From Sporomusa sp. (GTDB lineage: Bacteria; Bacillota_C; Negativicutes; Sporomusales; Sporomusaceae), in NCBI GenBank assembly GCA_029256645.1, contig JAQSXM010000009.1, forward strand, positions 1 through 20,787: a stretch of DNA of 20,787 nt, in the 5' to 3' direction. Made by a program: the position numbers and the translations under genes. Shown piece by piece: positions 77 through 17,421 of the stretch (its first letter is position 1; every line of letters starts with the position of its first letter). Under the pieces are notes generated by a model, which was given only the letters and a program-made list of their open reading frames with translations, was not told the DNA's origin and did no database searches.

Positions 77-105
77 TTGACAGCATAATGGGAAAGGGAT
101 ATACT
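77..105 (+). promoter_or_regulatory. Sigma-A type promoter of the peptide-transporter/D-amino-acid operon
   Basis: TTGACA (77-82) and TATACT (100-105) are separated by 17 bases. The -35 is a perfect match and the -10 matches at five of six positions. The predicted start is near 112, at the edge of the palindrome 111-134. The first plus-strand gene begins at 449, so the leader would be about 335 bases long. Confidence 0.75.
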
Positions 106-448: not shown

Positions 449-2005
449 ATGATTCGCTGTAAATGGCTTTTGGCAGTAATCGCAATACTAGTTTTGTCTG
501 TAACAACCGCTTGCTCTAATTCTGCCCCCGAAACTGCCAAAAAGGAAAAAAACGAGCTGAAAGTGGCAATATCGGCAGCACCGCCAACACTGGATCTGCA
601 CAAAACCACTACGCAGATTGCCCAAAAAGTGGGCTGGCATATCTTTGATACCTTGGTTACTCTTGATGAAAATTACCAAGTAGTACCCATGCTGGCTGAG
701 AAAATTGAGATCAGCCCTGACGGAAAAACCACTACACTGCTGCTGCGCAAGGATATTGCTTTTCATAACGGCAAGGTTATGACATCCGAGGATGTGCTGG
801 CCTCTATTAACCGCTGGCGCAATTATTCTTCCCTGGGTAAAGCCAATCTGGGAAAAGCCGAGATTACCGCACCTGATAAAGATACTATTGTCATAAAGCT
901 GCCGGCACCATCAAATGCCGTGCTCTTCTCCCTGGCTTATCCCTCACAGGGGGCATCCATTATGCCGAAAGAGGTTATTGATGAAGCCGGCGATGGAAAT
1001 GTCAAACAGTTTGTTGGCACAGGGCCGTTCCAGTTTGTTGAATGGAAACAGGATCAATACATTCACTTGAAAAAGTTTGACGGTTTTAAACCACGCCCAG
1101 AACCCGCCAGCGGCCTTGGCGGTAAACGGGAAGCCCTGGTAAAGGATCTCTATTTCATCCCTGTGGGCGATAATGCGACAAGGGTGGCCGGTGTACAAGC
1201 CGGCGAATACGATATTGCCGATGAGATCCCCTTTGATAATTATGAAATGTTAAAAAGCAGTACCGGTTTAAAAACAGCCATTGCCCAGGATACGACCTAT
1301 CTGAATCTGGTGTTTAACAAGAAAAATTCGCTGTTTGCCAATGTTAAAGCCCGCCAGGCAGTGGCTGCCGCCTTGGATATGGATCCCATTATGAAGGCTG
1401 TAACAGGAAATCCGGAATTTTATACACTGGATGCCGGGCTGGTATTCCCCAAAGATGCCTGGCATGTGGATAATGGCAAGGAAAAATACAACCAGAAAAA
1501 TACCGAATTGGCCAAAAAGCTGCTGGCCGAGTCCGGTTACAAGGGAGAGCCGGTGGTGTTTCTGGTAACCCGTGATTTTGATTATATGTATAAGAGCTCG
1601 CTGGTTGTTAAGGAACAACTGGAGCAAATCGGGGTCAATGTCAAGCTGGAGGTATATGACTGGGCTACATTAAACAGCAAACGTTCAAACCAGAATGGCT
1701 GGGATATGTTTGTGACAACCTCTTCCGGTTTCAGAGAGCCGACAGCGATCTTATTTCTTGACTCACGTTTAAAGTGGGCAGGCTGGTATAACAACCCGCA
1801 AATGGACAACATGCTTGATCAGATCCGGGAAAGTGCAAATTTTGAAGATGCCAAAAAAATCTTTGGTCAGGCTCAGGCGCTTTACTGGGAAGAGGTCCCG
1901 ACAGTCAAGCTCGGTAATATGAACGGACTGGTAGTCTATCGGAATTATGTCCAAGGATATCAATACTTTATGGAGTCTCCATTCTGGAATGTTTCTGTTC
2001 AATAA
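449..2005 (+). CDS. Peptide-type ABC transporter substrate-binding lipoprotein (SBP_bac_5)
   Basis: This is the extracytoplasmic binding protein of an Opp/Dpp/Nik-class importer, 518 residues, the usual length. A signal peptide ends in a lipobox (VTTAC, Cys22), so the mature protein should be lipid-anchored outside the membrane. The family signature is visible in the mature part: ELKVAISAAPPTLDLHKTT near 36-54, the SPDGKTTTLLLRKDIAFHNG block near 90-110 and GTGPFQF near residue 192. AGGAGG (435-440) lies eight bases upstream of ATG. Matching permeases and ATPases follow immediately. The ligand cannot be read from sequence; the downstream deacylase and racemase suggest N-acyl-D-amino acids or short peptides with D-acidic residues. 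A nickel or glutathione binder is a less likely alternative. Confidence 0.9.
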   Translation: MIRCKWLLAVIAILVLSVTTACSNSAPETAKKEKNELKVAISAAPPTLDLHKTTTQIAQKVGWHIFDTLVTLDENYQVVPMLAEKIEISPDGKTTTLLLRKDIAFHNGKVMTSEDVLASINRWRNYSSLGKANLGKAEITAPDKDTIVIKLPAPSNAVLFSLAYPSQGASIMPKEVIDEAGDGNVKQFVGTGPFQFVEWKQDQYIHLKKFDGFKPRPEPASGLGGKREALVKDLYFIPVGDNATRVAGVQAGEYDIADEIPFDNYEMLKSSTGLKTAIAQDTTYLNLVFNKKNSLFANVKARQAVAAALDMDPIMKAVTGNPEFYTLDAGLVFPKDAWHVDNGKEKYNQKNTELAKKLLAESGYKGEPVVFLVTRDFDYMYKSSLVVKEQLEQIGVNVKLEVYDWATLNSKRSNQNGWDMFVTTSSGFREPTAILFLDSRLKWAGWYNNPQMDNMLDQIRESANFEDAKKIFGQAQALYWEEVPTVKLGNMNGLVVYRNYVQGYQYFMESPFWNVSVQ

Positions 2006-2026
2006 TCAGCAAGGGGGAAGAGACTT

Positions 2027-2983
2027 ATGCTGCGCTATATCTTCAAACGGATACTGTCGTTAATTCCCGTGCTTGCCGTTGTTGCGCTGGTAGATTTTAT
2101 TATTATTCATCTGACGCCGGGAGACCCCGCGGTTATTATGCTGGGATCAGATGCCTCTGAAACGGATTTGTCCAAGCTGCGAGAGCAGCTTGGTCTTACT
2201 CTTCCGATTTATGTCCAGTTTGGTCATTGGCTTCTGGGGGTGGTGCAGGGAGACCTGGGACGCTCGATTTTTATGGATATGCCGGTTACGCAGGCAATCT
2301 GGCAGCACCTGGGGCCTACGGTTTCACTCTCACTGCTGGCAGAGTTGATAGCGGTTTTATTTGCCCTGCCGCTAGGGGTTATGGCAGCAACCAGACGGGG
2401 CAGCTGGATTGACCAGCTGTTAATGGTCACCGGGTTATTGGGAATTTCCATCCCCAGCTTCTGGTTGGGACTTAATTTTATCCTGCTGTTCGCCGTGAAA
2501 CTCAACTGGCTGCCGGCCGCAGGCTATCAGCCGCTGTCCAACGGTTTGCTGAATCATATCAAATATTTGCTGCTGCCGGCTCTGTCGCTGGGGATTATGC
2601 AGGCCGCCCTGATTGCACGCATGACCAGAGCCTCTATGCTGGAGGTACTCAGCGAAAACTATATACGCACAGCTCAGGCCAAGGGATTAAAACAGCAGGT
2701 TATTATCTATAAGCATGCCCTGAGAAATGCCTTTATTCCCATTTTAACGGTAATTGGGCTTACGTTTGCAACATTAATCGGTGGCGCAGTCGTAACCGAA
2801 ATGGTTTTCAATATTCCCGGGATTGGGAAGTTAGTTGTTAATTCGGTTTTACGGCGGGATTATGTGGTGATACAGGGCACGATTCTGATGATTGCCACAG
2901 CCTATGTATTTATCAATTTGCTTGTTGATTTACTATACGCTTATATTGATCCGCGTGTTCGCTTTGACGACCAGGCACGATGA
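2027..2983 (+). CDS. Peptide-type ABC transporter permease, DppB/OppB family
   Basis: This is one of the two membrane subunits that form the translocation channel. The 318-residue protein has an N-terminal membrane segment (about 9-29), the family hallmark LTPGDPA near 29-35 in the first external loop, further membrane spans at about 98-120, 132-156, 180-198, 237-258 and 283-305, and the cytoplasmic coupling (EAA-like) loop at about 212-240 (IRTAQAKG ... HALRNAFIPIL). It ends with the conserved YAYIDPRVR. GGGGGAAG lies just before the ATG. The next gene overlaps or follows directly, which fits one operon. Assignment to the family is secure; substrate is unknown. Confidence 0.92.
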   Translation: MLRYIFKRILSLIPVLAVVALVDFIIIHLTPGDPAVIMLGSDASETDLSKLREQLGLTLPIYVQFGHWLLGVVQGDLGRSIFMDMPVTQAIWQHLGPTVSLSLLAELIAVLFALPLGVMAATRRGSWIDQLLMVTGLLGISIPSFWLGLNFILLFAVKLNWLPAAGYQPLSNGLLNHIKYLLLPALSLGIMQAALIARMTRASMLEVLSENYIRTAQAKGLKQQVIIYKHALRNAFIPILTVIGLTFATLIGGAVVTEMVFNIPGIGKLVVNSVLRRDYVVIQGTILMIATAYVFINLLVDLLYAYIDPRVRFDDQAR

Positions 2984-2997
2984 AGGGAGATTCTGCA

Positions 2998-3852
2998 GTG
3001 GAAGTTATTTCAAGGAAGAGGCTAATCCTGCGACGTTTTTTAGCTAACCGGCTGGCCGTAACAGGGAGTATCCTGGTCTTGCTGGTTATCCTGATGGCGG
3101 TATTGGCACCGTTTATTACTGTTTATGACCCGCTTGCCATGAAAGTTGCCGACCGGTTGCAGGCTCCCAGTTCCGTGCATTGGTTTGGAACAGATGAGTT
3201 TGGTCGTGATGTGTTCAGCCGGGTTATTTACGGCAGTCAGATTTCCCTGCAGGTGGGGGTGGCTGTTGTTATTATCACCTCACTGGGAGGAGTGGTTTTA
3301 GGACTGTATTCCGCCTATTACCGCCGACTGGACATGGTGATTATGAGTATCAATGACGGGATGATGGCCTTCCCCACAATATTGCTGGCGATTGCTATTA
3401 TTGCCGCTTTGGGGCCGACAATACAAAATGTTATTATTTCCATCAGTGTGGTTTACATCTCCCGGGTGGCACGGGCTGTGAGGGCTGCCGCCCTTGTGGT
3501 GCGGGAACAAACCTATATTGAGGCCATCCGCGCCTTAGGGGGAACACCGGCCAGGATTATCTGGCGCCACATCGCCCCTAATTGTCTGTCTCCTTTAATT
3601 ATTCAGGCTACCTTTATTTTTGCCTACGCGATTATCATTGAGGCTTCACTTAGCTTTCTGGGTGCAGGTACACCGCCGCCGCAGCCAAGCTGGGGCAACA
3701 TTCTAAACGATGGCCGGACTCTGATACGGCAGGCCTGGTGGATTATGATCTTTCCCGGCTGTGCTGTTGTTATGACCGTACTCGGGCTGAATCTTATTGG
3801 CGACGGTCTGCGGGACTTGCTTGATCCACGCACCAACAAAGCCAAAGGCTGA
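2998..3852 (+). CDS. Peptide-type ABC transporter permease, DppC/OppC family
   Basis: This is the second channel subunit and partner of the preceding permease. It shows the OppC-family N-terminal segment (RRFLANRLAV, then a long hydrophobic span), the HWFGTDEFGRDVFSR motif after the first external loop, the EAA-like coupling loop (YIEAIRALGG ... WRHIAPN) and the terminal GDGLRDLLDPR. GTG at 2998 is chosen because AAGGGAG (2983-2989) sits eight bases upstream. An in-frame ATG at 2980 would overlap the previous stop by four bases and add six residues, but has no Shine-Dalgarno sequence; translational coupling would make it possible. The function is secure at family level. Confidence 0.9.
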   Translation: MEVISRKRLILRRFLANRLAVTGSILVLLVILMAVLAPFITVYDPLAMKVADRLQAPSSVHWFGTDEFGRDVFSRVIYGSQISLQVGVAVVIITSLGGVVLGLYSAYYRRLDMVIMSINDGMMAFPTILLAIAIIAALGPTIQNVIISISVVYISRVARAVRAAALVVREQTYIEAIRALGGTPARIIWRHIAPNCLSPLIIQATFIFAYAIIIEASLSFLGAGTPPPQPSWGNILNDGRTLIRQAWWIMIFPGCAVVMTVLGLNLIGDGLRDLLDPRTNKAKG

Positions 3853-3883
3853 TCTTAACTACAGAAAATGAGGGATGAGACAA

Positions 3884-4897
3884 ATGGACAATCTTTATCC
3901 TTTACTGCAAGTAAATAATTTAAAAACCTATTTTGCGACAGAGCAGGGACCCGTAACTGCAGTTGACGGCATTGATTTCACTGTACATGAAGGAGAAACT
4001 GTGGGGCTGGTCGGCGAATCAGGCTGCGGCAAGAGTGTAACATCCCTTTCGGTTTTGCGTTTGTTTGAAGAATACAGCGGCACCAAAATAGAAGGAGAAA
4101 TTTTGTTTGAAGGTAAAAACCTGCTGAATTCGTCAATGGACGAAATGCAAACCATCCGTGGAAACCGCATAGCAATGATCTTTCAGGATCCCATGACATC
4201 ATTAAACCCGGTCTTTACGGTTGGCGACCAAATTGCCGAATCAATTATTTTACATCAGCGGCTTGGTAAAAAAGAGGCCTTGGCCAGGGCTGTGGATATG
4301 CTGAAACTGGTGGGGATTTCTTCTCCGGAACGGCGGATTCATGAATATCCCCACCAACTATCCGGGGGAATGCGGCAGCGGGTAATGATTGCTATGGGAC
4401 TGGCCTGCGAGCCCAGACTGCTGATTGCCGATGAACCCACAACCGCACTGGATGTAACCATTCAGGCGCAGATTTTGGATCTAATGCTGGATTTGCAGAA
4501 AAAGATTAATATGGGAATTATTCTAATTACCCATGACCTGGGAGTGGTAGCCGAGGTGTGCTCACGGGTAATGGTTATGTATTTGGGCCAAATTGTTGAG
4601 GAATGTTCTGTGGAAACATTATTTACACGGCCGGCACATCCTTACACAATCGGCCTGATCCGGTCTATTCCCACCCTGGAAGGCAATCGCCGCGAACCGC
4701 TGCACATGATTGCCGGCAAGGTCCCTTCCTTGCAGCAAATTCCGCAGGGATGCCGGTTTGCCCCTCGCTGTCCCCGGGCAGATTCTGTCTGCCGGTCAGA
4801 GATTCCGGGCCTGGGCACCGTTGAGACAGCCCACAAAGTACGCTGCTGGCATTATGAAAATCCGGATAAGAGGGTGAACAGTCATGCCGGTCAATGA
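3884..4897 (+). CDS. Peptide-type ABC transporter ATPase, DppD/OppD family
   Basis: This is a cytoplasmic nucleotide-binding subunit that powers the importer. Visible motifs are Walker A GESGCGKS (44-51), the signature LSGGMRQR and Walker [13 protein letters not shown] followed by the switch histidine region LITHDLG. The C-terminal oligopeptide-transporter domain carries four cysteines spaced CX5CX6CX17C (about 290, 296, 303, 321), a pattern known in DppD-type ATPases to bind a [4Fe-4S] cluster. ATG 3884 has GAGGGA eight bases upstream; ATG 3875, three codons earlier, overlaps that site and is less likely. The gene's end overlaps the next start by 14 bases, which suggests coupled translation of the two ATPases. 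Confidence 0.92.
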
Positions 4898-5870
4898 GGT
4901 TGTTGGAGAAAATGAGTCATTAATTAAGGTAAATCATTTAGTAAAGCATTTTCCGGGGAAAAAGGAACTGTTTAAGGCTCCGACTGTGGTAAAGGCTGTT
5001 AACGGCCTTTCATTCACTATCGAAAAAGGAGAGACTTATGGCTTGGTCGGCGAGTCCGGCTGTGGGAAAAGTACGACCGGGCGTATGCTGCTGCGACTGA
5101 TTGAACCTACGTCCGGGGAGGTATTTTACCAGGGAAAAGATATTTTAAAGTTAAACAGGATAGAACTGCGTCAGATTCGTAAAGACATGCAGATCGTTTT
5201 TCAGGATCCGTTTTCCGCCCTAAATCCCCGTATCCGGGTTGGTGAAGCCATCAGGGAAGTGCTGGACATCCATAATATCGGTGAGCCTAATACCCGCAGA
5301 GAACAAGTCTATGAGCTTTTTCACCGGGTAGGATTAAACAGAGAACAATATGACCGTTATCCGCATGAGTTTTCCGGCGGACAGCGGCAGCGGATCGTTC
5401 TGGCGAGGGCTCTGGCTGTAGATCCGGGTTTTATTGTGTGCGATGAAGCGGTGTCAGCTCTTGATGTTTCAACCCAGTCGCAGATTATCAATCTTCTGGC
5501 AGACTTGCAGCAGGATTTGTCGCTGACGTATTTGTTTATTGCTCATAATTTGAGTGTTGTGCGGCATATTTCTGATAAAATTGGGGTTATGTATCTGGGA
5601 AACCTGGTTGAAGAGGCCAATACAGACGACCTATTCTCCGAGCCTTTACACCCGTATACCCAGGCCCTGCTTACCGCGATTCCGCGGACGGATCTGAACC
5701 GTAAAAGAGAGCGTATTATTTTGTCCGGTGACGTGCCATCGCCGCTTAATTTACCGGCAGGCTGCGCTTTCCACACCAGGTGTCCGGCCGTCAGGGAGCA
5801 GTGCAGGCAGGAAGCTCCACGGCAAAAAATTGTGCATTCCGGACGGCGGGTTGCCTGCCACCTTTATTAA
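4884..5870 (+). CDS. Peptide-type ABC transporter ATPase, DppF/OppF family
   Basis: This is the second nucleotide-binding subunit, 328 residues, forming a heterodimer with the preceding ATPase. Walker A GESGCGKS is at 56-63, followed by the signature FSGGQRQR, Walker [13 protein letters not shown] and FIAHNLSV. Walker B reads DEAVSALD, normal for DppF. The C-terminal domain has the same CX5CX6CX17C pattern (about 294, 300, 307, 325) as its partner. GAGGGTG lies seven bases before ATG. It completes the transporter; a gap of about 120 bases without a recognisable terminator separates it from the deacylase gene, so read-through is plausible. Confidence 0.92.
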
Positions 5871-5993
5871 CCGGGCCGGATATGGGTTAGGTTTTCATCT
5901 ATCAACAAAAATATGAAAAATAGTCATAAGATATAGGATTTATATCGCTTATAGCCATAATAGAGGCGATCTGCGCGGAATGGAGTGAATGAC

Positions 5994-7532
5994 ATGAATA
6001 CCCCTATTCTCATAAAAGGAGCAACTATCTATGACGGCAGTGGAACCCCGCCTTTTATCGCTGATGTTCTGATTGCCGGTGGTATTATCAGCAGGATCGG
6101 CAGAACGGTTCACCAAGCGGGCTGCGAGGTAGTGGAGGCGGCGGGCAAGATTCTTTCGCCTGGCTTTATCAATACCCACAGCCATTCCGAGCTTGAGATA
6201 TTCAGGGATCCCCGACTGCTTCAGGTAATCGGACAGGGCATCACTACCGAGGTACTCGGACAGGACGGCTCATCAGTCACCCCCATCGACGACGCCCATG
6301 TCCAGGAACTGGCAGAGAATATGGCGCCGCTGTGTGGCAAGACAGACCGTCCGTATTGGTGGCGGACCTATGCCGATTACATGCATGAAATCGAAACAGT
6401 CAATCCTGCGGTGCGCTTCGTTGGCCTGGTGGGACACGGCACAGTCCGCATGAGTGTAATGGGAAGCGAAAACCGGGTTCCTACGCCTGGAGAACTCAAT
6501 CAGATTTGCGACATCATTGAAGACAGCATGGCTGAAGGCGCCCGCGGCGTTTCGTTCGGTATGATCTATCCGCCCAGTAGCTATGCCTTCACCGAGGAAC
6601 TCATCGCGATCTGCAGGGTAGTGGCCCGGCATGACGGCATCGTTATGGTGCATACCCGCAACGAAATGGGACGGTTAATTGAATCGTTTGAAGAGATGGT
6701 TCATGTAATGAAGGCGAGCGGCGTCAGGCTGCTGATTTCCCACCTCAAATCACTGGGTTTTCTCAACTGGGGCAAGGTGCTCAAGATACTTGACCGTATG
6801 GAGCAACTTCAGGCCGAAGGCTATGACATTACTTTTGACCAGTATCCCTGGACAGCAGGCAGCACCGGCATGAAAGTCATTGCTCCCGGCTGGGCCTATG
6901 CCGGCGGCGAGGACGAATTTCATAAGCGTCTGCATGATCCCACCCTTTATAAAAAGATTTTGACAGACACCCGCGAGGAATTGTATGCGCGCGGCAGTGG
7001 CAAAAGCGTGCAGATTGCCACAGTCCCTCCCGGCGAGTTTGAGTGGATGGCCGGCTTGCATCTTGACGCCATAGCCAAACGTCTGGACATGGACGAGGCG
7101 GTGGCGGTACTCCATATTCTTGAAAAAACCCGCTCTGCGGTCATTTGCGTTTACCACGCCATTTGCGAGGCGGATGTGCAAAAAGTGATGCAAAGTCCCT
7201 ATCATTGTGTTTGTACTGACGGCATTGTCGGTGCAGTGCCGCATCCGCGGGCCTATTCAACTTTTCCGCGCTTTCTGGGGCGCTATGTGCGTGAGCTTGG
7301 TGTTATACCACTGCAAACAGCCATCCGCAACATCACTTTCGAACCGGCCCGGCGCTTGCGGCTGTGGGATCGCGGACTGGTGCGCCAGGGGCTGTCGGCT
7401 GATCTGGTGCTGTTCGATTACGAGCGGGTGATGGATACCAACAGCTACGCCGAACCCAAAAAGCTGCCGGCTGGTATTTGCAAGGTCTGGGTGAAAGGCG
7501 TGCTGCGCTATCAGGAAGGAATGTCTCTTTAA
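5994..7532 (+). CDS. N-acyl-D-amino-acid deacylase family amidohydrolase
   Basis: Enzymes of this family hydrolyse N-acyl-D-amino acids to a carboxylate and a free D-amino acid in the cytoplasm. The 512-residue protein shows the amidohydrolase metal site: HSH (62-64), HTRNE (His220), SHLK (His250) and TDG (Asp409), plus HPRAYSTFPRFLGRYVRE (417-434), typical of D-aminoacylases. At the position where classical D-aminoacylases have the metal-bridging cysteine (NCG), this protein reads GQDGSS with Asp91, a variant also found in part of the family. ATG 5994 is preceded by GGAGTG at six bases; an in-frame GTG at 5985 overlaps that site. The neighbouring racemase points to N-acyl-D-Glu or N-acyl-D-Asp as substrate, but specificity is inferred. 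A dihydroorotase/hydantoinase role is less likely. Confidence 0.85.
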   Translation: MNTPILIKGATIYDGSGTPPFIADVLIAGGIISRIGRTVHQAGCEVVEAAGKILSPGFINTHSHSELEIFRDPRLLQVIGQGITTEVLGQDGSSVTPIDDAHVQELAENMAPLCGKTDRPYWWRTYADYMHEIETVNPAVRFVGLVGHGTVRMSVMGSENRVPTPGELNQICDIIEDSMAEGARGVSFGMIYPPSSYAFTEELIAICRVVARHDGIVMVHTRNEMGRLIESFEEMVHVMKASGVRLLISHLKSLGFLNWGKVLKILDRMEQLQAEGYDITFDQYPWTAGSTGMKVIAPGWAYAGGEDEFHKRLHDPTLYKKILTDTREELYARGSGKSVQIATVPPGEFEWMAGLHLDAIAKRLDMDEAVAVLHILEKTRSAVICVYHAICEADVQKVMQSPYHCVCTDGIVGAVPHPRAYSTFPRFLGRYVRELGVIPLQTAIRNITFEPARRLRLWDRGLVRQGLSADLVLFDYERVMDTNSYAEPKKLPAGICKVWVKGVLRYQEGMSL

Positions 7533-7628
7533 CTGGCAGGCTGGAGCTTTGCCGGCAAACAAAATCTGGATTTTTACCCAGAATAAAATTGTAGTAATGT
7601 CTGTATTAGTTAGGGGGGGAGCTTTATT

Positions 7629-8435
7629 TTGAACAATCAGCCGATTGGCTTGTTTGACTCGAGCTTGGGTGGATTGACAGTTTATAAGGAGGTAAAGAAA
7701 ATATTGCCAAATGAAAGTTATATTTATTTTGGCGATACCGGCCGTTCGCCGTATGGTTCGCGGCCTGAAGCAGAATTGAAAAGTTTTGTGAAACAAATTA
7801 TTCAATTTATGCAAAAGCATGAGGTCAAAGCAATAGTTATTGCCTGTAACACCGTTACGGCGCTAGGCTTGGAGCAACTGAGCCAGGAGTTCAACATACC
7901 GTTAATCGGTGTAAGCCGTGTTCCGGAGCTGACAGTTTCAACTACCAGGAACAAGCGGGTCGGCGTTATCGGCACAGAGATCACCGTTCGTTCAGGGTTG
8001 CATAAGCAGGATATTCTGCATATAGATCCTTCTATTCAGGTATTTTATGCGGCCTGCCCCAAATTTACACCCATACTTAATAGTGGTGACCTGGCCGGGA
8101 CAGAAGCCGGAGCGGCTGTGGAAGAGTATTTAACGCCGCTAAAAGCGGCGCACATTGATACGCTGGTCCTGGGGTGCACAGCTTTTCCGTTTTTGTTGCC
8201 CGTAATTAGGAGTTTTATGGGCGAAGGGGTCGCGATCATTGATCCGGCGGAAGAAACCGCAAGGCAGCTCCTGCGCTCTTTACAACAGGCCGGGAGGCTG
8301 CACAAATCGGAGAATCCGGCGAATACGCTATTATTTTCGGAACCCGATATCGAAAAAATACGGCTTATTGCCAGTAAAATCATCAACGTAGACGATTGCA
8401 GCTTTCAATATCTTGACATGAACCAGGCTGTCTAA
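7629..8435 (+). CDS. Glutamate (aspartate/glutamate) racemase family protein
   Basis: The MurI family interconverts D- and L-glutamate by a two-cysteine mechanism without cofactor. This 268-residue protein has the family length and motifs: an N-terminal DSSLGGLTV (10-18; usual form DSGxGGLTV), FGDTGRSPYGSR (34-45), catalytic Cys73 in ACNT and catalytic Cys183 in LGCT. The residue after LGCT is Ala185, where MurI proteins normally have a histidine (LGCTHYP) that assists the second cysteine, so kinetics or specificity may differ. TTG at 7629 is chosen because the run AGGGGGGGAG ends seven bases upstream. Position after a D-aminoacylase argues for catabolic racemisation of D-Glu/D-Asp rather than cell-wall supply. 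Confidence 0.82.
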   Translation: MNNQPIGLFDSSLGGLTVYKEVKKILPNESYIYFGDTGRSPYGSRPEAELKSFVKQIIQFMQKHEVKAIVIACNTVTALGLEQLSQEFNIPLIGVSRVPELTVSTTRNKRVGVIGTEITVRSGLHKQDILHIDPSIQVFYAACPKFTPILNSGDLAGTEAGAAVEEYLTPLKAAHIDTLVLGCTAFPFLLPVIRSFMGEGVAIIDPAEETARQLLRSLQQAGRLHKSENPANTLLFSEPDIEKIRLIASKIINVDDCSFQYLDMNQAV

Positions 8436-8466
8436 CCTTTAAAAAGTGCATCCTAAGGAGGCCAAC

Positions 8467-9228
8467 ATGAAGAAAAAAGTTGGTATTATTGGCTATGGTA
8501 CAATCGGAAAGTATATTTTTGAGAAATTATCCCGGGACGGGGTGGAATTCGCCTTTGTGTTTGACAGGACGGCAGTAGCGGATAAAAAAAAGGGCACCAT
8601 ATTTACGGACTCCACCGAAGAAATTGTACAAAAATGCGCTGCTGGAGTGGACCTTGTCATAGAAACCGCAACCTCGCAGGCAGTAGTAGAATTGGCTCCG
8701 GCAATTCTAAGGTTTGCCGACATGGTTGTCTTTTCGGCAACAGCCTTTGCTGACCAGGAATTTCTGAACCGGATACATCAAATTTGCCAAACATCCCAAC
8801 ACAAGCTTTATATTCCTCACGGGGCCATTTTGGGGCTTGATGGTATCATTGACGGAAAAGACGTTTTACAGGAGGTCTCAGTTACGACCACCAAGAGACC
8901 GGAGAATCTTGGCCGCACCGACAGCTGCAGAACAATTCTTTACGAGGGACCAACCCGTAATGTCTGCCGGCTGTATCCGCGCAATGTTAATGTTCATGCC
9001 GCAATAGCCTTAGCAGGACTCGGCTTTGATACAACCCGGTCCAGGATTATCTCCGACCCTGATGCCCCTGGCAATACCCATAGCATTGAGATCAAAGCCC
9101 AGGGCTGTACGTTTAAAATCGAAGTAGTAAGCGAACCGGTATCAGGGGTAACAGGGGCCTATACACCGGTTTCCGCCTATTCGTCAATACGGCGGATCTT
9201 ATTCAATCAGGGGCTGGTAATAATTTAA
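8467..9228 (+). CDS. nadX: L-aspartate dehydrogenase (NadX family)
   Basis: The family oxidises L-aspartate with NAD(P)+ to iminoaspartate, which hydrolyses to oxaloacetate and ammonia or feeds NAD synthesis. The 253-residue protein has an N-terminal Rossmann motif GYGTIG (9-14), the HGAILGLDGI segment (118-127), TTKRPENLGR (141-150), RNVNVHAAIALAG (172-184) and SDP...NTH with His205 at the conserved catalytic histidine position. ATG 8467 follows AAGGAGG by five bases; an ATG at 8446 in the same frame has no such site. No quinolinate synthase or nadC is nearby, so a catabolic deaminating role alongside the racemase and aminotransferase is more likely than NAD synthesis. Activity on D-aspartate or another amino acid cannot be excluded. 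Confidence 0.85.
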   Translation: MKKKVGIIGYGTIGKYIFEKLSRDGVEFAFVFDRTAVADKKKGTIFTDSTEEIVQKCAAGVDLVIETATSQAVVELAPAILRFADMVVFSATAFADQEFLNRIHQICQTSQHKLYIPHGAILGLDGIIDGKDVLQEVSVTTTKRPENLGRTDSCRTILYEGPTRNVCRLYPRNVNVHAAIALAGLGFDTTRSRIISDPDAPGNTHSIEIKAQGCTFKIEVVSEPVSGVTGAYTPVSAYSSIRRILFNQGLVII

Positions 9229-9291
9229 TTAAATATCTGTGTTTTGTTTATTATTAAGGATTTAACTTGAAGGGACGAAAGGAGAAGCACA

Positions 9292-10503
9292 ATGAGTCTG
9301 TTATGTGACAAATTTTCAAAGATCGGTGTTGACAATGCTCCTGGCCAGGAGGTACGCCAGCACATTGGGGAAATTCGGCTCCGGGGAAAAGAGATACCTG
9401 GTAAACCAGTTGATTTTTCTCATGGCGATGTAAATGCATTTGAGCCAATCCCCGGCTCGCTGGACGAATTTATTGCCGGTGTCCGGCGCGGCGGCGAACA
9501 GGCTTATACTGAGTATCGCGGCGGCAGCAGCATTCGCCTGGATTTGGCGGAGAAGCTTACCAGGTTCAGCGGCACGGCGGTTTCTGCTGATAAGGGCCTT
9601 ATTATTACTCCCGGAACGCAGGGAGCGCTGTTTTTGGCAATAGGCGCTACCGTTGCCAGGGGGGACAAGGTCGCAATCGTTGAGCCTGACTACTTTGCCA
9701 ACCGTAAACTCGTCCAGTTCTTTGAGGGCGAGGTGTTTCCCGTCCAAATCGATTATCTTGGAACCTCCGAGTATGCCGGGTTGGATCTAACCCAGCTGGA
9801 GGAGGCGTTTAAGGCCGGCGTCAGACTCTTTTTATTTTCCAACCCTAACAACCCCGCCGGGGTAATCTATTCACCGGCCGAGATTCGTGCCATTGCCGGT
9901 CTTGCCCAAAAATACGGCGCCACGGTTATTGTCGATCAACTATACTCCCGGCTGCTTTACGAAGGGAAAACCTACACCCATCTATGCACGATGGACATCG
10001 AGCCCGAGAATATAATTACCATTATCGGACCGTCAAAACTGGAATCCATTAGTGGTTACCGGCTGGGAGTGGCGTTTGGCTCGTCCAGAATCATTGACCG
10101 CATGGAGAAGTTGCAGGCAATTGTATCCTTGCGTGCTGCCGGCTATAGCCAGGCCGTATTGAAGACCTGGTTTGCCGAGCCAACCGGCTGGTTAGATACG
10201 CGTATCGCGCTGCATAAGGCAATACGGGATGACTTATTAAAAATTCTCCGGTCAGTTGCGGGACTTGAAGTAAGAATACCGGAGGCCGGCAGCTACCTCT
10301 TTCCCCGAATTCCGGCGCTGGCTGTTACTATACAGGAATTCGTCAAAATTCTTCGTCTGCAGGCTGGGGTAACAGTGACTCCCGGTACAGAATTCGGTTC
10401 ACATTTCACCGACAGTTTCCGCCTCAATCTTTCACAGGATCATGAAGCAGCTGTACATGCAATCGAACGCGCCGTTAAATTGATTGAAAGATATCGCAAA
10501 TAA
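9292..10503 (+). CDS. Class I/II pyridoxal-phosphate aminotransferase
   Basis: This is a fold-type I aminotransferase of 403 residues. Visible active-site elements are TPGTQGALF (106-114, cofactor phosphate loop), SNPNNPAG (183-190), Asp215 and Tyr218 in VDQLYSR, the Schiff-base lysine Lys249 in GPSKLES, GYRLG (Arg257) and the substrate-carboxylate arginine Arg377 in FRLNL. These resemble aspartate/aromatic aminotransferases, but the exact substrate pair is not readable. AAAGGAG lies seven bases before ATG. As the last gene of the train it could transfer the amino group of L-glutamate to oxaloacetate, giving aspartate for the preceding dehydrogenase. No clear terminator follows; the first REP-like hairpin at 10621-10655 may serve. 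Confidence 0.88.
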   Translation: MSLLCDKFSKIGVDNAPGQEVRQHIGEIRLRGKEIPGKPVDFSHGDVNAFEPIPGSLDEFIAGVRRGGEQAYTEYRGGSSIRLDLAEKLTRFSGTAVSADKGLIITPGTQGALFLAIGATVARGDKVAIVEPDYFANRKLVQFFEGEVFPVQIDYLGTSEYAGLDLTQLEEAFKAGVRLFLFSNPNNPAGVIYSPAEIRAIAGLAQKYGATVIVDQLYSRLLYEGKTYTHLCTMDIEPENIITIIGPSKLESISGYRLGVAFGSSRIIDRMEKLQAIVSLRAAGYSQAVLKTWFAEPTGWLDTRIALHKAIRDDLLKILRSVAGLEVRIPEAGSYLFPRIPALAVTIQEFVKILRLQAGVTVTPGTEFGSHFTDSFRLNLSQDHEAAVHAIERAVKLIERYRK

Positions 10504-10620
10504 GCGGTTTTATAAGCGCAGGGACCCGGGCTTTCTAAATACCTGGAATTAGTTGTGGTCATATTGATAAGAACGGAAATATCAAGGTGATTGACGTGGT
10601 ATGGGCGGTGGACGGTAAGC

Positions 10621-10655
10621 AAATGACTCAAGAGAACCGTCCCCCTGAGTCATTT
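10621..10655 (+). repeat. REP-like hairpin repeat, copy 1
   Basis: AAATGACTCA (10621-10630) and TGAGTCATTT (10646-10655) are perfect 10-base inverted arms around AGAGAACCGTCCCCC. The 29-base core (10624-10652) matches copy 2 (16796-16824) at 28 of 29 positions. On the minus strand it reads GGGGGACGGTTCTCT between TGACTCA and TGAGTCA. Such GGGGACGGTTCT elements are, to my knowledge, dispersed in many Bacillota and linked to REP-associated tyrosine transposases; no such transposase gene is in the window. The hairpin is followed by T residues and could terminate the upstream operon. Confidence 0.75.
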
Positions 10656-10696
10656 TCGAAACTGCTGAAAAAGTAGCACTCGTCCCCAAACCCATA

Positions 10697-10873
10697 CTAC
10701 ATATAGTTATCCAATATAATTTCGATCTCAATATATTGTAGGCGATCGGTTTTGACCTTGAGTTTTTCAGTGGTTTCTAACCGTCCCTGTGAGTCATAAA
10801 GAGTTACTGTTGTGACATATAGGCTGAGGCAATAGCCGCTTGTATCATTTTGGCGGTAACCCCTTCCGTCCAT
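10697..10873 (-). CDS. Possible 58-codon ORF overlapping the end of the small cysteine-motif gene
   Basis: In a different minus-strand frame from the gene at 11100-10804, an ATG at 10873 opens 58 codons ending in TAG at 10697, overlapping that gene's last 70 bases. Its second half is hydrophilic and protein-like (LETTEKLKVKTDRLQYIEIE). No Shine-Dalgarno sequence is visible. It may be an overlapping gene, or the original C-terminus of the upstream gene displaced by a frameshift, or chance. It reads through the partial repeat as YDSQGR. I do not recognise the family. Confidence 0.25.
   Translation of the reverse strand: MDGRGYRQNDTSGYCLSLYVTTVTLYDSQGRLETTEKLKVKTDRLQYIEIEIILDNYM
10779..10796 (+). 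repeat. REP-like repeat, partial copy 3
   Basis: AACCGTCCCTGTGAGTCA matches the right half of copy 1 at 16 of 18 positions and lies in the same orientation, about 125 bases further on. The left arm is missing. Confidence 0.5.
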
Positions 10874-11100
10874 TTATCAAAATAACATGGATAGTTGGTT
10901 CCGCAGGTCTTACATTCTATATATTGCTTAGCATCCTTTTGTTCCCGTGTATCGTACATATAAGGAAGAAGCTCGTTGGTGTTATTAACTCCAGGGGCAT
11001 TCCCATCTATGCTATAGGAATATTCATAAGTAGCTTGGTATTTTAGTGTAAAATGGTCAGCACTGCAAACGGGGCATACAACACGCGTGTTATGCTGCAT
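10804..11100 (-). CDS. Small hypothetical protein with CPVC/CKTC cysteine motifs
   Basis: The 98-residue product has Cys9-Pro-Val-Cys12 near the N-terminus and Cys63-Lys-Thr-Cys66, then Cys72, which looks like a zinc-ribbon with paired CxxC knuckles. The middle (about 22-60) is polar and tyrosine-rich, and no membrane segment is present. ATG 11100 is preceded by GAGGTG six bases upstream; the GTG at 11109 overlaps that site and is unlikely. It is divergent from marR across about 230 bases. I do not recognise the family; a metal-binding or nucleic-acid-binding role is only a guess. Its stop codon lies inside the overlapping frame at 10873-10697, so a frameshifted C-terminus is possible. Confidence 0.6.
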   Translation of the reverse strand: MQHNTRVVCPVCSADHFTLKYQATYEYSYSIDGNAPGVNNTNELLPYMYDTREQKDAKQYIECKTCGTNYPCYFDKWTEGVTAKMIQAAIASAYMSQQ

Positions 11101-11267
11101 ATTTGTCACCTCTATTTTAATATATGGATATAGTTTTGTTTTCTTAAGGACTAACTACATAAGACCAGTGGCTGCTCATTGCTATTATGTCCATAAATAG
11201 CAGGCTAATGCTGACAGCTTAAATGATAGCGGTTTAAGTGATGTATGATATTTAATTGAAAATTATA

Positions 11268-11296
11268 TTGACTGATTATTGCAATAAGATTATAAT
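11268..11296 (+). promoter_or_regulatory. Promoter of the marR gene
   Basis: TTGACT (11268-11273) and TATAAT (11291-11296) are 17 bases apart, close to the sigma-A consensus. The operator palindrome begins at the end of the -10 element, so repressor and polymerase would compete. Confidence 0.8.
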
Positions 11297-11319
11297 GTAG
11301 TTGTTGGGACAACTACATT
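11294..11319. promoter_or_regulatory. MarR operator 1 (autoregulatory)
   Basis: Eleven-base inverted arms flank TGGG; the core is TAGTTGT-TGGG-ACAACTA (11298-11315). It overlaps the -10 element and start site and ends eleven bases before the marR ATG. The same core occurs again at 11775-11792, ahead of the next gene. This shared core identifies it as the probable binding site of the encoded MarR protein. Confidence 0.75.
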
Positions 11320-11329
11320 GGAGGCTTAA

Positions 11330-11755
11330 ATGAATTTTAAATTAGAGGATTCATTAGGGTTTATTCTAAATAAGGTAAATACAAAACTAAAAAATGAATT
11401 ATTTCAACAATTAAAAGAAAATGATGTAACTCCAGAGCAATGGGCTATTTTAAACTGTTTATGGGAAAAAGAAGGTATTACCCCCAAAGAGTTGTCAGAT
11501 ATGACCTTTAAAGATAAACCGAACACGAATCGGATTTTGGAAAAGTTAATAATAAAGGGGTTAGTTGTTCGAAAATCTCATCCCGTGGATAAGCGAGCTT
11601 TTCAAATATTTTTGACTGATGACGGGTGGGCATTGCGTGAACAACTAATTCCCAAGGTTAAGCAACTATTAGATAAAGCAACATCAGGTATAGAACAACA
11701 TAAAGTGGCAGAAATGAAGAGAATGCTAAATCGAATTTACGAGAACATCAAGTAG
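11330..11755 (+). CDS. MarR family transcriptional regulator
   Basis: A 141-residue winged-helix DNA-binding protein of typical MarR length. The dimerisation helices are at the ends, and the winged helix spans about 30-105: TPEQWAILNCLWEKEGITPKE, then the recognition helix region KPNTNRILEKLIIKGLV and the wing RKSHPVDKRAFQIFLT. MarR proteins are usually repressors released by small aromatic ligands or oxidation; only one kind of ligand class cannot be chosen here. GGAGG lies eight bases before ATG. Operators of identical core flank the gene on both sides, predicting autorepression and control of the DUF169 gene. Codon use is more AT-rich than in the catabolic operon, which may mean separate acquisition. 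Confidence 0.9.
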   Translation: MNFKLEDSLGFILNKVNTKLKNELFQQLKENDVTPEQWAILNCLWEKEGITPKELSDMTFKDKPNTNRILEKLIIKGLVVRKSHPVDKRAFQIFLTDDGWALREQLIPKVKQLLDKATSGIEQHKVAEMKRMLNRIYENIK

Positions 11756-11765
11756 TGGATTTTTT

Positions 11766-11796
11766 TTGAAGTTATAGTTGTCATGACAACTATAAT
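11766..11796 (+). promoter_or_regulatory. MarR operator 2 with promoter of the DUF169 gene
   Basis: A perfect 24-base palindrome (11772-11795) has the core TAGTTGT-CATG-ACAACTA (11775-11792), the same half-sites and spacing as operator 1. Its right end overlaps a TATAAT (11791-11796); a weak -35 TTGAAG is at 11766-11771 with 19-base spacing. A repressor here would cover the spacer and the -10 element. The DUF169 gene starts 60 bases downstream. Confidence 0.7.
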
Positions 11797-11855
11797 GATG
11801 GATTGATATGATTATGTCAGTGTAACTCAATATAAAATAAAGTGAGGTAGAGAAT

Positions 11856-12605
11856 ATGGAAAGCCGTTTAGTTAAAGAATTGAGCTTGCGTTATGAACCG
11901 GTAGCTGTTTTGCTTAGCAATGAAAAACCGGAAGGGGCACTTCAGGGGAAAGAAGGGCAGTGGAGCTGTGCAATTCCGTTATTTATTGCGGCCGCAAAAG
12001 GGAAAACAGCAGTTTTTGAACGTAAAACCACAGGCTGTCTTGGTGGTAAAAAAGGATTGGGGTTTGGTCAATTTCCGAATTATCCCGGTGGGATTGAGTA
12101 TTTTTTGTCAGTTGGCAAAAGCGGCCAATTTGAAGGTGAAGGATATAAAAAAGATCCTGAGCTGGGAGCAGAGTTTGTTGAATGCCTGCCAATAACTGAT
12201 ATTCCCTATCAGTACGTCATTTTCAAACCGTTGTCACAGCTTGACACTACTAAGGAAGTACCTGAGTTAATAGTGTTTTACGTTAATAATGATCAGTTAT
12301 CGGCCCTTACCGTCCTTGCAAACTATTATAGACCGGGAAATGAAAATGTTACGATACCTTTTAGCTCAGGGTGTCAGTCTGTTTTTCTTATTCCCTATGC
12401 CGAAGCCCAGAAGGAAAATCCAAGAGCGGTCGTGGGTTTGACTGATATTACCGTGCGCCCCATGGTCGAGGCTGACATGCTGTCATTTTCTGTTCCCTAC
12501 AAAATGTTTCTGGACCTGGAAGAAAGTGTAGAGGGAAGTTTCTTAAAGAAACACTTATGGCACAGAGTAGTGGCGAGAATGGAAAAAGCCACTAAAGTAC
12601 AGTAG
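11856..12605 (+). CDS. DUF169 family protein
   Basis: A 249-residue cytoplasmic protein matching the uncharacterised DUF169 (COG2043) family by its pattern: RYEPVAVLL near the N-terminus, WSCAI (Cys38), the KTTGCLGGKKGLGFG block (Cys61), FVECLP (Cys110), and SSGCQSVFLIPYAEA (Cys173). The conserved cysteines suggest redox or metal chemistry, but the function of the family is not established. There is no signal peptide or membrane segment. GAGGTAG lies upstream of ATG. It is preceded by its own promoter bearing the MarR operator, so it is probably the regulator's main target, with expression induced by an unknown compound. Confidence 0.8.
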   Translation: MESRLVKELSLRYEPVAVLLSNEKPEGALQGKEGQWSCAIPLFIAAAKGKTAVFERKTTGCLGGKKGLGFGQFPNYPGGIEYFLSVGKSGQFEGEGYKKDPELGAEFVECLPITDIPYQYVIFKPLSQLDTTKEVPELIVFYVNNDQLSALTVLANYYRPGNENVTIPFSSGCQSVFLIPYAEAQKENPRAVVGLTDITVRPMVEADMLSFSVPYKMFLDLEESVEGSFLKKHLWHRVVARMEKATKVQ

Positions 12606-12631
12606 TTTAATTTTTACTGACAGGGGTGCCA

Positions 12632-13816
12632 TTATTCACGCAAAGAAGCGAGTGCTGCATTGGCTAGTACAGCTGCTCCAACCACCAGCGCCGACTCATT
12701 CAGGTTAAATTTCGAATGATGCAGCTGGTAGTTTTTTTGCCCCGCGAAGCCTGTCCCCAAAGCAAAAAATGCGGCCGGAACTTGTTGACAATACAAAGAA
12801 AAATCTTCACCCAGCAGCACTTGCGGCACAGGCACAACGCTTTGCTTGCCGGCAATTTCCCTGGCAGCGCTTGTCAGGATATCAACCGCTGTATCGTCAT
12901 TGATCAACGGAACCAGGCCTCTGGAAAAGGAAAACTGATACTGCGCCCCATGCAGTGAGGCAATGGATTTTACAGTCTGTTCAATCAGTTCTCCGGCCTG
13001 TTCGGCGATCTCTGTTTTAAAACAACGGAGTGTACCGCCCAACACTGCTTTTTCCGCTATGACATTACTCTGCGTGCCGGCGGTGATTGTACCAACCGTC
13101 AGGACAAACGGTTCGACCGGGTCGATTTTGGCAGCGGCAATTCCTTGTAAAGCCAGGATAATTTCGGCGGCAATAACAATCGGGTTGACTGCCTGATGCG
13201 GAAGCGCGGCATGACCACCTTGTCCGGATATTTCGATTTCAAACCTGGAGCCGCAAGCGAAAAACGCTCCTTTACGGTAGCCAACTGTACCTGCCGGCAA
13301 ATGGGGATCAACATGCAGACCGAACAGCATGTTCACATCAGGATTTTTTAGTACGCCTTCAGCAATCATGTCTTTAGCGCCCCCCAAAGGGCTTTCTTCG
13401 CTGGGCTGAAAGATCAGTTTAACCGAACCGGGGATATATTCCCGCAGATTTGCCAGTATTTCCGCCGCTCCAAGCAACATGGCAGTATGGGCATCATGTC
13501 CGCAGGCGTGCATAATATTGTCCTGTTTGGACTGGAAAGGCAGGCCGGTTTCTTCTTTAATGGGCAATGCATCCATATCGGCCCGCAGCCCTACGGTCTT
13601 AGTACCGCCTGTACCCCGTAGAATTCCGACTACGCCCGTCTTACCGATTTTTTCCTGTGTTTCGAACCCCAATTCACGCAGTCGGGCAGCGACAAGTTCG
13701 GCTGTTTTCCATTCTTCGGTTGCCAGTTCCGGGTAGCTGTGAATTGTCCGTCTAAAGTCAATGATCTGCTCTTCTGCCTGGGCAGCGTATTGTTTTAGTA
13801 ACGATAAATATTCCAT
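12632..13816 (-). CDS. M20D amidohydrolase (N-acyl-L-amino-acid/hippurate hydrolase type)
   Basis: A two-metal zinc peptidase-fold enzyme that cleaves N-acyl groups from amino acids or related amides. The 394-residue protein shows RADMDALP (Asp80 region), HACGHDAHTAM (Cys105, His107), FQPSEE (Glu140-Glu141), GLHVDP (His168), the dimerisation lid start GQGGHAALPH (His202) and the C-terminal LHHSKFNLNE. These are the M20D catalytic and metal ligands. It is last in the minus-strand unit, a few bases after the binding-protein gene, so the transporter may bring in its substrate. ATG 13816 is preferred; a TTG at 13828 lies directly against AGGCGG with no spacing. The substrate is unknown: N-acetyl-amino acids, hippurate-like amides or IAA conjugates all fit the family. 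Confidence 0.88.
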   Translation of the reverse strand: MEYLSLLKQYAAQAEEQIIDFRRTIHSYPELATEEWKTAELVAARLRELGFETQEKIGKTGVVGILRGTGGTKTVGLRADMDALPIKEETGLPFQSKQDNIMHACGHDAHTAMLLGAAEILANLREYIPGSVKLIFQPSEESPLGGAKDMIAEGVLKNPDVNMLFGLHVDPHLPAGTVGYRKGAFFACGSRFEIEISGQGGHAALPHQAVNPIVIAAEIILALQGIAAAKIDPVEPFVLTVGTITAGTQSNVIAEKAVLGGTLRCFKTEIAEQAGELIEQTVKSIASLHGAQYQFSFSRGLVPLINDDTAVDILTSAAREIAGKQSVVPVPQVLLGEDFSLYCQQVPAAFFALGTGFAGQKNYQLHHSKFNLNESALVVGAAVLANAALASLRE

Positions 13817-13837
13817 ATTTGCGCTCAACCGCCTATG

Positions 13838-14905
13838 TTATTTTAATTCACCGGTGTAATACGGATTATATTCGTTGGTATAAAGATCTTCCGCAATGAC
13901 CTTGCCTGGCGTTTCAAAGCCGGAAAGTTTGTTTTTCTCGGCCAGATCTACCCAAAATTTAATTTGCTCAGGCTGCACCCATTTATAGGTGCCATAGGTT
14001 GTACCCGCCATATCCTGTACATCCACTTTGAGAAATTCGGCAGCAATTTTCATCGCATCCTCGTAGTGATCATTAATATAATGCTGCGTTTTTACCGTGG
14101 CAACGATGTAAGCTTTAACGACATCCGGATATTTTTTGATAAAATCCTCACTGAATGCCCGCACACCAACAGCACTGAAGCGTCCGTCGCCGGCCCCTGC
14201 CGCGATCTTGTAGCTTGTGGCCAGGATATCCAAACCGCCGTTATTTTTTGCTTTCATATTGTGCGGTGCATGCAAAATGGCAACATCAATGTCACTGCGC
14301 CGAAGTGCCTGTTCCTGCTGCAAATCATTCATGACGATAATTTTAGTTTCATTGGGATTGATTCCGTTTTGCCGTAAGAATTCCGAATTAAACAGTTCGG
14401 CGCAGCTTCCTTTACCGCTCATTGCTATAGTTTTGCCTCTCAAATCTTCCGCTTTGGTTATCCCGCTGCCTGATTTTACAAACCAGGTCATATGGGTTTT
14501 GTCGAATTCAGGAGAATCCAGCGTTCCGGCCTGAACAATTTTCAGATTAGCACCTGCCTGACGCGCAGAGGCAATGGTTGTTGCATGGCCGGAACCGAAC
14601 ACATGATTATAACCTTGTATCACCGATTGGGCCAGCGTTGCATTTTGCGGCAGCGTCCCGGTATATTCGACCTCAAGGCCAACTTCCTTTAAAAATCCCT
14701 TTTTATCGGCGACAATGATTTCGTTAAATCCGGTAGGGGTAGGAAGCTTCAATTTGAATGTTTGGGTAAGCTTTCCATTTACAAATTTAGGGGAACCTTC
14801 ATCTGCCGCTGCCGTTTGTTTTGAATCAACGGCAGAATTTCCGCAGCCTGACAACAATAAGGCAAATAAAATAAGCAGTATTGATGTGATTTGGATTTTT
14901 TTCAT
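13838..14905 (-). CDS. ABC transporter substrate-binding lipoprotein, NMT1/SsuA/TauA type
   Basis: This binding protein captures small organic anions (sulfonates, nitrate, taurine, pyrimidine-like compounds in relatives). The 355-residue protein begins MKKIQITS with a hydrophobic signal and lipobox LLSGC (Cys21), so it should be membrane-anchored outside. Family features include GFNEIIVADKKGFLKEVGLEVEY and the GKTIAMSGKGS ... LRQNGINP block of the type II binding fold. ATG 14905 has AAGGAG nine bases upstream; the open frame extends 35 codons further but without such a site and would bury the signal peptide. It lies between the permease and amidohydrolase genes. The ligand is not readable; the neighbouring amidohydrolase suggests an acylated amino acid or amide. 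Confidence 0.88.
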   Translation of the reverse strand: MKKIQITSILLILFALLLSGCGNSAVDSKQTAAADEGSPKFVNGKLTQTFKLKLPTPTGFNEIIVADKKGFLKEVGLEVEYTGTLPQNATLAQSVIQGYNHVFGSGHATTIASARQAGANLKIVQAGTLDSPEFDKTHMTWFVKSGSGITKAEDLRGKTIAMSGKGSCAELFNSEFLRQNGINPNETKIIVMNDLQQEQALRRSDIDVAILHAPHNMKAKNNGGLDILATSYKIAAGAGDGRFSAVGVRAFSEDFIKKYPDVVKAYIVATVKTQHYINDHYEDAMKIAAEFLKVDVQDMAGTTYGTYKWVQPEQIKFWVDLAEKNKLSGFETPGKVIAEDLYTNEYNPYYTGELK

Positions 14906-14960
14906 CTGAAGACACTCCTTAAAACTGAATTTTAATTTAAACATGTGCCGGGCAATTGGG

Positions 14961-17333: not shown

Positions 17334-17421
17334 ATACCCAATAATCATTTATATTGATAGTTATTAAAAATGCATGAAATTAGTATAAATGTTTCTATTA
17401 GGACAATTTCATATACAAAAC

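Follow-up and report, generated by a model that had tools for sequence, protein, structure and literature searches.

A candidate catabolic operon for an imported amide-linked D-amino acid in a Sporomusa-type bacterium, and the recurrent dehydrogenase-aminotransferase gene pair within it

Subtype V N-acyl-D-amino acid deacylases, a group that includes the D-aminoacylase/N-acyl-D-glutamate deacylase enzymes AfDam (1m7j) and BbDam (3gip), bind metal through a Cys/His/His site (PMC12017989). The D-aminoacylase-like enzyme OngB, which also has a Cys ligand, acts on an amino sugar acid as the catabolic deacetylating step of a pathway for oxidised chitin (PMC12017989). The other described counterparts of the genes analyzed here are the glutamate racemase MurI, the dehydrogenase NadX (2dc1 and 1j5p), the PRK06207 protein 3nra, which was deposited under the name aspartate aminotransferase, and a gene cluster of plasmid pAtS4c. 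We examined a stretch of 20,787 nucleotides from Sporomusa sp. (contig JAQSXM010000009.1 of assembly GCA_029256645.1; the window), in which five importer genes are followed by relatives of these enzymes. Nine successive open reading frames (ORFs) were found on the + strand at 449-10503, at the coordinates and of the families claimed in an earlier reading of the sequence (the first-pass annotation):

449..2005, + strand: lipoprotein-type solute-binding protein (SBP) of family 5 (family match)
2027..2983, + strand: ATP-binding cassette (ABC) permease of DppB/OppB type (best model 339.8 bits, cutoff 350)
2980..3852, + strand: ABC permease of DppC/OppC type (best model 285.1 bits, cutoff 350)
3875..4897, + strand: ABC ATPase of DppD/OppD type (NCBIfam match)
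4884..5870, + strand: ABC ATPase of DppF/OppF type (PRK11308, 416 bits, cutoff 408)
5985..7532, + strand: D-aminoacylase-family metalloamidohydrolase of the 'GQDG' clade, the deacylase (family match, structure alignments, residue check)
7629..8435, + strand: MurI-fold racemase-like protein with a TTG start, the racemase (NCBIfam scan, homologue alignment)
8446..9228, + strand: NadX/aspartate-dehydrogenase-like protein of the 'PHGA' subfamily, the dehydrogenase (domain and family scans, alignments)
9292..10503, + strand: pyridoxal-phosphate aminotransferase of class I/II, PRK06207 subfamily, the aminotransferase (698.9 bits, cutoff 464)

Together these genes suggest that a Sporomusa-type bacterium has a catabolic operon dedicated to a specific substrate, in which an imported amide-linked D-amino acid would end in a two-enzyme deamination, a reading to which we assign a probability of roughly 0.42. 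A small D-amino acid in amide linkage (N-acylated) would be taken up by the ABC importer and hydrolyzed at the amide by the D-aminoacylase-family enzyme, with a metal-bound water at an Asp94/His223/His253 site. The MurI-fold protein would invert the freed D-amino acid by means of its two cysteines. The aminotransferase would then transfer the amino group onto a 2-oxo acid, of which oxaloacetate is the simplest choice; from there the NadX-like dehydrogenase would release it as ammonia and regenerate the acceptor, such that the two enzymes would stand in for a single amino-acid dehydrogenase. The gene content, the family memberships, the kept key residues and the recurring linkage of the last two genes are observations; we infer the order of these steps, the co-operation of the last two enzymes and the identity of the amino acid, for which glutamate is a first guess, with aspartate or another possible. 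The first-pass annotation had proposed the same series of import, deacylation, racemization and deamination for acidic D-amino acids by textbook reactions. Its general scheme plausibly survives in the coherent gene set and in the carboxylate-binding residues kept by the deacylase; the acidic substrate and the textbook labels of the racemase and dehydrogenase, which the sequence would not imply, found only partial support, and the family assignments, though matched, proved looser than it had implied for the deacylase, racemase and dehydrogenase. Three of the four enzymes are unusual versions of known families, so that any amino acid named as the substrate is tentative. A literature search of open-licence papers pointed to no operon of such make-up; the first-pass annotation likewise knew of none with exactly this set of genes. 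The genes are tightly packed across the importer, with overlap or near contact, and looser over the enzyme genes, which are preceded by 114, 96, 10, and 63 nt (the gaps between successive ORFs being 21, -4, 22, -14, 114, 96, 10, and 63 nt); a single transcript spanning all nine is likely from this arrangement.

The deacylase probably starts at the ATG at 5994, as judged from the length of a database copy (P0001, 512 amino acids), and its closest named database protein is that of Sporomusa aerivorans (92%). It scored 159.6 against the best-matching NCBIfam model (cutoff 340), and its nearest solved structures were D-aminoacylase, an unnamed amidohydrolase (9g5m), OngB, and N-acyl-D-glutamate deacylase. 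When the residues of the metal, acetamido-group and alpha-carboxylate sites defined for OngB/PpOngB and the D-aminoacylases in PMC12017989 were located, the window enzyme was found to share with AfDam and BbDam the two His ligands (H223 and H253), the catalytic Asp and the alpha-carboxylate-binding residues (D412, K255, Y287, S293, and R422). The subtype V site itself was not found, as Asp94 of a GQDG motif replaces the metal-ligand Cys of AfDam, BbDam and OngB. This Asp was present in 118 of the 120 best of 2369 homologues, the window protein included, and the other two carried Glu (GQEG); among 28 readable relatives (30 loci taken, with L027 and L028 left out), the GQDG and Cys motifs were each found in 14. 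These counts point to a large deacylase clade with a carboxylate at the metal-ligand Cys position, whose Asp-ligand metal site is presumably active. Specificity is set at the position of AfDam Leu298, BbDam Arg295, and OngB Gln298 (PMC12017989). The acidic specificity proposed in the first-pass annotation is weakened, in that the residue matching Arg295 of BbDam, a Bordetella enzyme, was not alignable (the alignments end before its loop). Lys297 was rejected as proof of acidic specificity, given that the hydrophobic-preferring AfDam has Lys at the aligned position. A link to bile-salt hydrolases was likewise set aside, as these belong to another group of amidohydrolases, for which a carboxylated Lys is predicted (PMC13081902).

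The neighbourhoods of deacylase relatives raise the explanation that the operon serves an N-carbamoyl-D-amino acid, as formed when hydantoins are broken down, with the GQDG enzyme acting as a decarbamoylase and the freed amino acid removed by the rest of the pathway. Relatives at 51-54% in three loci (L001-L003) were found in a different kind of cluster, with threonine-dehydratase-like genes and hydantoinase-like genes of the hydantoinase/allantoinase amidohydrolase group; the amidohydrolase of L002 passes the allantoinase model TIGR03178 (409.6 against 357.85) and falls below the cutoff for hydantoin-5-propionate amidohydrolase (357.5 against 650). L001 and L002 also encode a protein read as hydantoin-racemase-like (the L002 copy without an NCBIfam match) and unscanned proteins read as dicarboxylate-type symporters. 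We further inspected 20 regions of 5.5 to 19 kb around deacylases (35-54% identity), chosen from the places listed in the phylum of the Sedimentibacter genome G002; 15 of these contain a deacylase with GQDG, and for one (L101) no metal-site motif was obtained. In seven of the 20, all among the 15 with GQDG, the deacylase has a hydantoinase-like gene nearby, and the two genes adjoin in L086 and L095; one of the seven (L103) is the Sedimentibacter locus a second time. By comparison, MurI was near the deacylase in two of the 20 regions. Counter to the N-carbamoyl explanation, tblastn searches with the L002 hydantoinase and with HyuA/HyuB gave no match in the window at E<=1e-8, the importer is of peptide type, and the nearest solved relatives of the deacylase act on N-acetyl compounds, the characterised enzymes in PMC12017989 being acetyl-removing. 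We regard N-carbamoyl use as unlikely, though as the least unlikely of the competing explanations.

The racemase was found to belong to the MurI family, with both catalytic Cys motifs (ACNT and GCT) and D10/S11 kept, and it passes TIGR00067 (216.3, cutoff 146.65). It fails two stricter glutamate-racemase models (241.4 against 328, and 105.7 against 408) and differs from MurI at three positions: E151 is replaced by Asn, H185 by Ala (GCTH to GCTA), and Gly12 by Ser. The Glu, His and Gly at these positions are invariant in 31 of 31 homologues, comprising 29 from the 30 best-matching loci and those of L084 and L085, all from the phylum of G002, and the His of GCTH is also present in the three solved relatives compared. 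Residues of the Glu151/His185 type assist catalysis in MurI. Missing Glu and His, the racemase is therefore likely to have a changed substrate or to be a slower enzyme, which weakens the glutamate-racemase step of the first-pass annotation. A housekeeping murI is also unlikely as the identity of this gene, given the lost residues.

The dehydrogenase probably begins at the ATG at 8467 (a database copy, P0241, is 253 amino acids long), and its closest named proteins are those of S. aerivorans (87%) and Sporomusa termitida (86%). NAD-binding and Asp_DH_C domains are present, and two residues close to the C-terminal substrate site, N203 and H205 (numbered from 8467), are kept as in 2dc1 and 1j5p. 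However, the protein falls below the cutoffs of all eight NCBIfam aspartate-dehydrogenase models matched (150.8 against 184 for the best, 139.9 against 267, 139.1 against 206.55, and five further models), and it has His in a PHGA loop where the two solved aspartate dehydrogenases compared have Ser (SGA). The loop recurs in 119 of the 120 best homologues listed, and we treat the protein as a member of a distinct 'PHGA' subfamily; its identity as aspartate dehydrogenase, as first annotated, is weakened accordingly, and the names NadX and glutamate racemase should not be copied here from family matches. These same features, the missed cutoffs and the PHGA loop, would fit a dehydrogenase for another amino acid that deaminates the released one directly, with the aminotransferase serving nitrogen transfer or a side branch, and a subfamily member in L109 lies with indolepyruvate-oxidoreductase-, ADP-forming acyl-CoA-synthetase-, and aldehyde-oxidoreductase-like genes (unscanned). 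Set against this, N203 and H205 are kept and the linkage to the aminotransferase suits the aspartate/oxaloacetate couple, so that direct deamination of a different amino acid is, in our estimate, improbable. In that L109 stretch (5451-12815, + strand; translations read, unscanned) a creatininase-like gene also stands beside the subfamily gene. NAD biosynthesis was set aside as the role of the NadX-like gene, as no NAD-synthesis partner was found among the scanned window proteins, a search that was not genome-wide.

The aminotransferase gave a near full-length match to 3nra (E 1.9e-173), and its closest named database protein is that of S. termitida (95%). With the matches of the deacylase and dehydrogenase given above, this makes the host probably a Negativicutes member of Sporomusa type. 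Arg281, which would bind an acidic side chain, was found in 107 of 120 homologues, the other 13 being off the search pattern. Homologues of the dehydrogenase and aminotransferase were compared by the sizes of the contigs on which they lie, a linkage fingerprint in which an identical size does not show adjacency; the longest contig per 90% cluster was used and 119 of 120 aminotransferase sizes were entered. Eleven contig sizes were common to the two, of which one (1682) was dropped as too short for both genes. The 10 usable sizes, including those of S. termitida and S. aerivorans, compare with 0.6 expected by chance, and eight of them are at least 5 kb (0.13 expected). Plasmids gave a similar result: all eight records listed with a dehydrogenase match of at least 40% (40 of 83 matches listed) also carry an aminotransferase of at least 60%, which was found in 28 of 1328 matched records overall, and in seven of the eight the two genes are within 1.3 kb. 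A chance neighbourhood was therefore rejected for this pair on the basis of the plasmid records and common contig sizes; for the deacylase it was not fully rejected.

The eight pair-bearing records represent about four lineages, and one record of each was examined. The cluster of pAtS4c (L043) has the order HyuA, HyuB, NadX-like, threonine-dehydratase-like, aminotransferase, with an SBP-5-like transporter nearby. It thus resembles the Sporomusa-type locus in pairing the NadX-like protein and aminotransferase with an amide hydrolase and such a transporter, and differs in having a hydantoinase/oxoprolinase in place of the D-aminoacylase, a threonine-dehydratase-like protein in place of the MurI-like one, additional SIS and PfkB genes, and the transporter on the opposite strand. 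Fructoselysine-6-phosphate-deglycase-like and fructoselysine-kinase-like genes (both below cutoff) lie at 5893-14890 (+ strand) with HyuA/HyuB, the NadX-like gene and the aminotransferase; the cluster may serve the use of a sugar-amino-acid (opine-like) lactam. In L044 (Neorhizobium) the pair is 16.6 kb apart, with HyuA/HyuB one gene from the NadX-like gene. In L051 and L052 (Rhizobium sp. AB2/73 and 11515TR) the pair flanks a LysR-like gene; searches of the 28.7-kb stretches for HyuA, HyuB, deacylase, hydantoinase, and AstE gave no match at E<=1e-8. Two of the four lineages thus have, close to the pair, an amide hydrolase of a kind that was searched for. The aminotransferase was also found apart from the dehydrogenase, as, of the 28 plasmid records carrying the aminotransferase at 60% or more, 20 lack a NadX-like match of at least 40% among the 40 listed. 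Six further aminotransferase regions (L045-L050) gave no NadX-like match within the fetched stretch, and the aminotransferase would therefore also work without the dehydrogenase. These six contain RidA-like genes (by tblastn in all but L048, where one is annotated), with threonine-dehydratase-like genes in L045, L047, and L048, HyuA-like genes 4 to 12 kb from the aminotransferase in L046, L049, and L050, sarcosine-oxidase, FolD, and PurU genes in L046 and L050, and PurU in L049. Across the 398 genomes searched in the phylum of G002, no aminotransferase was detected at E<=1e-80, an empty result that shows nothing without a known positive, and scans of viral contigs with the aminotransferase, dehydrogenase, and deacylase alignments led nowhere.

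The recurrence of the pair has a wider reach than the operon itself and is of more interest. It raises the prospect, which we hold tentatively and with some doubt, that the 'PHGA' NadX-like dehydrogenase and the PRK06207 aminotransferase form an undescribed, widespread deamination cassette attached to varied importers and amide hydrolases, acting without glutamate dehydrogenase on N-acylated or lactam amino acids, and coupled in the Sporomusa-type operon with a D-aminoacylase that has an Asp ligand and with a re-tuned MurI. The amide hydrolases would be (i) the D-aminoacylase in the Sporomusa-type operon; (ii) hydantoinase/oxoprolinase on rhizobial plasmids; and (iii) AstE/AspA, with the dehydrogenase alone. 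If true, this would assign a role to the dehydrogenase subfamily that databases name aspartate dehydrogenase, to a large 'D-aminoacylase' clade whose metal site is altered, and to a MurI paralogue, and would provide a two-enzyme deamination of amino acids freed from amide-linked compounds.

A further counterweight to the operon reading as a whole, alongside the residue changes described above, lies in the distribution of the complete gene set. When the neighbourhood was sought in other genomes, as the first-pass annotation had suggested, the dehydrogenase-aminotransferase pair recurred across lineages, but the full set of deacylase, racemase, dehydrogenase and aminotransferase was shown in no other genome. 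Homologues of the deacylase and dehydrogenase have in common a 28,156-base contig size and the S. aerivorans contig, and those of the deacylase and aminotransferase an 8,132-base contig size and the S. aerivorans contig (among the sizes in common with the deacylase, 3021 and 3936 could be coincidental, and 20787 belongs to the window). The S. aerivorans aminotransferase is only 73% identical and lies on a 6.5-Mb contig, which indicates co-occurrence rather than position. S. termitida has the pair, and no deacylase was found on its contig among the 120 best of 2369 matches. Neither the dehydrogenase nor the aminotransferase was detected at E<=1e-8 in any of the 20 deacylase regions. The deacylase was found at E<=1e-140 in two of 249 genomes of the order of G002; among the 398 genomes of its phylum the dehydrogenase was found at E<=1e-35 in one, and in two of four genomes of that genome's family. 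The nine genes could be neighbours from two separate units, one made up of the importer, deacylase and racemase and the other of the NadX-aminotransferase pair. Occurrences of the pair with no deacylase detected (S. termitida, among the matches listed, and the rhizobial plasmids), of the deacylase without the pair, and the gaps of 114, 96, and 63 nt would fit such a split; the single strand throughout, the weakness of the terminator-like stems and the contigs common to deacylase and NadX-like homologues do not, and we judge two units highly improbable.

In two loci MurI (GCTH) adjoins D-aminoacylases, namely L084, with a Cys-type enzyme, and L085, with one GQDG-type and one Cys-type; L084 gives the best independent, though indirect, pointer to glutamate. 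At L084 (5244-14983, - strand) 2-oxoacid:ferredoxin oxidoreductase subunits, both succinyl-CoA ligase subunits, a 2-hydroxyacid dehydrogenase, MurI, and a D-aminoacylase lie on the same strand, together with a transporter-like ORF without an NCBIfam match. The gene set would fit conversion of N-acyl-D-glutamate to 2-oxoglutarate and succinate and hints at a candidate N-acyl-D-glutamate fermentation locus. Its Cys-type deacylase is outside the clade of the window enzyme, and the MurI of L084 and L085 may be housekeeping because one MurI match was found per genome.

The importer was assigned by family, with the permeases and ATPases scanned against NCBIfam only. The binding protein scored under all NCBIfam cutoffs listed, and its Dpp/Opp assignment is a family match; its nearest named solved relative is AgaA (6hlx, E 7.3e-40), and 8vdx, which has no substrate name, scores better. 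AgaA is not known to bind peptides. The Dpp/Opp type of the importer would suit a use of dipeptides or cell-wall fragments, in which D-residue peptides are taken up and the amidohydrolase is a dipeptidase on their amide bond, and a NadX-like gene in L107, from the one genome in which the phylum search found the dehydrogenase, lies on the same strand as GntR, SBP-5, DUF6282, an S9 peptidase, DppB/DppC-like permeases, and an AstE/AspA-family deacylase. The L107 arrangement, a third one for a NadX-like gene, also speaks for the operon reading. The other NadX-like copy of that genome (L106) has no such neighbours, from ORFs read by eye. With AgaA as the nearest named relative of the binding protein, and with acetyl removal by the characterised relatives of the deacylase in PMC12017989, a dipeptidase role is quite improbable, and uptake of an N-acylated D-amino acid is preferred.

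Possible transcription signals were sought across the region:

77..105, + strand: tentative promoter-like site TTGACA-17-TATACT (11 of 12 consensus matches; consensus only)
5845-5859, + strand: weak terminator-like stem near a gene junction
7565-7582, - strand: weak terminator-like stem near a gene junction

Neither promoter-like sites (23 found, 17.7 +/- 3.9 expected from shuffles) nor terminator-like sites (18 found, 13.2 +/- 4.7 expected) were clearly above expectation. The leader 5′ of the binding-protein gene (100-448, + strand), which has no Rfam match, was found to fold better than any of the 100 shuffled versions (z -4.7) and contains T-tailed hairpins.

Downstream of the nine genes, a short orphan ORF (10804-11109, - strand) is followed by a MarR-type regulator and a DUF169 protein (11330-12605, + strand), and then by the next gene group. 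That group (12632-15731, - strand) has an M20-family amidohydrolase (TIGR01891, CpsA-like) adjoining an NMT1-type binding protein and an SaoP/SsuC-like permease, and is possibly a second locus for N-acyl amino acid use. A cobalamin riboswitch (RF00174, 99.9 bits) was found at 17410-17605 (+ strand), upstream of 17914-19677, and 3′ of it lies a second Dpp/Opp-like ABC transporter, whose permeases share 38% and 43% identity with the operon's own; this arrangement suggests B12-regulated uptake, perhaps of a metal.

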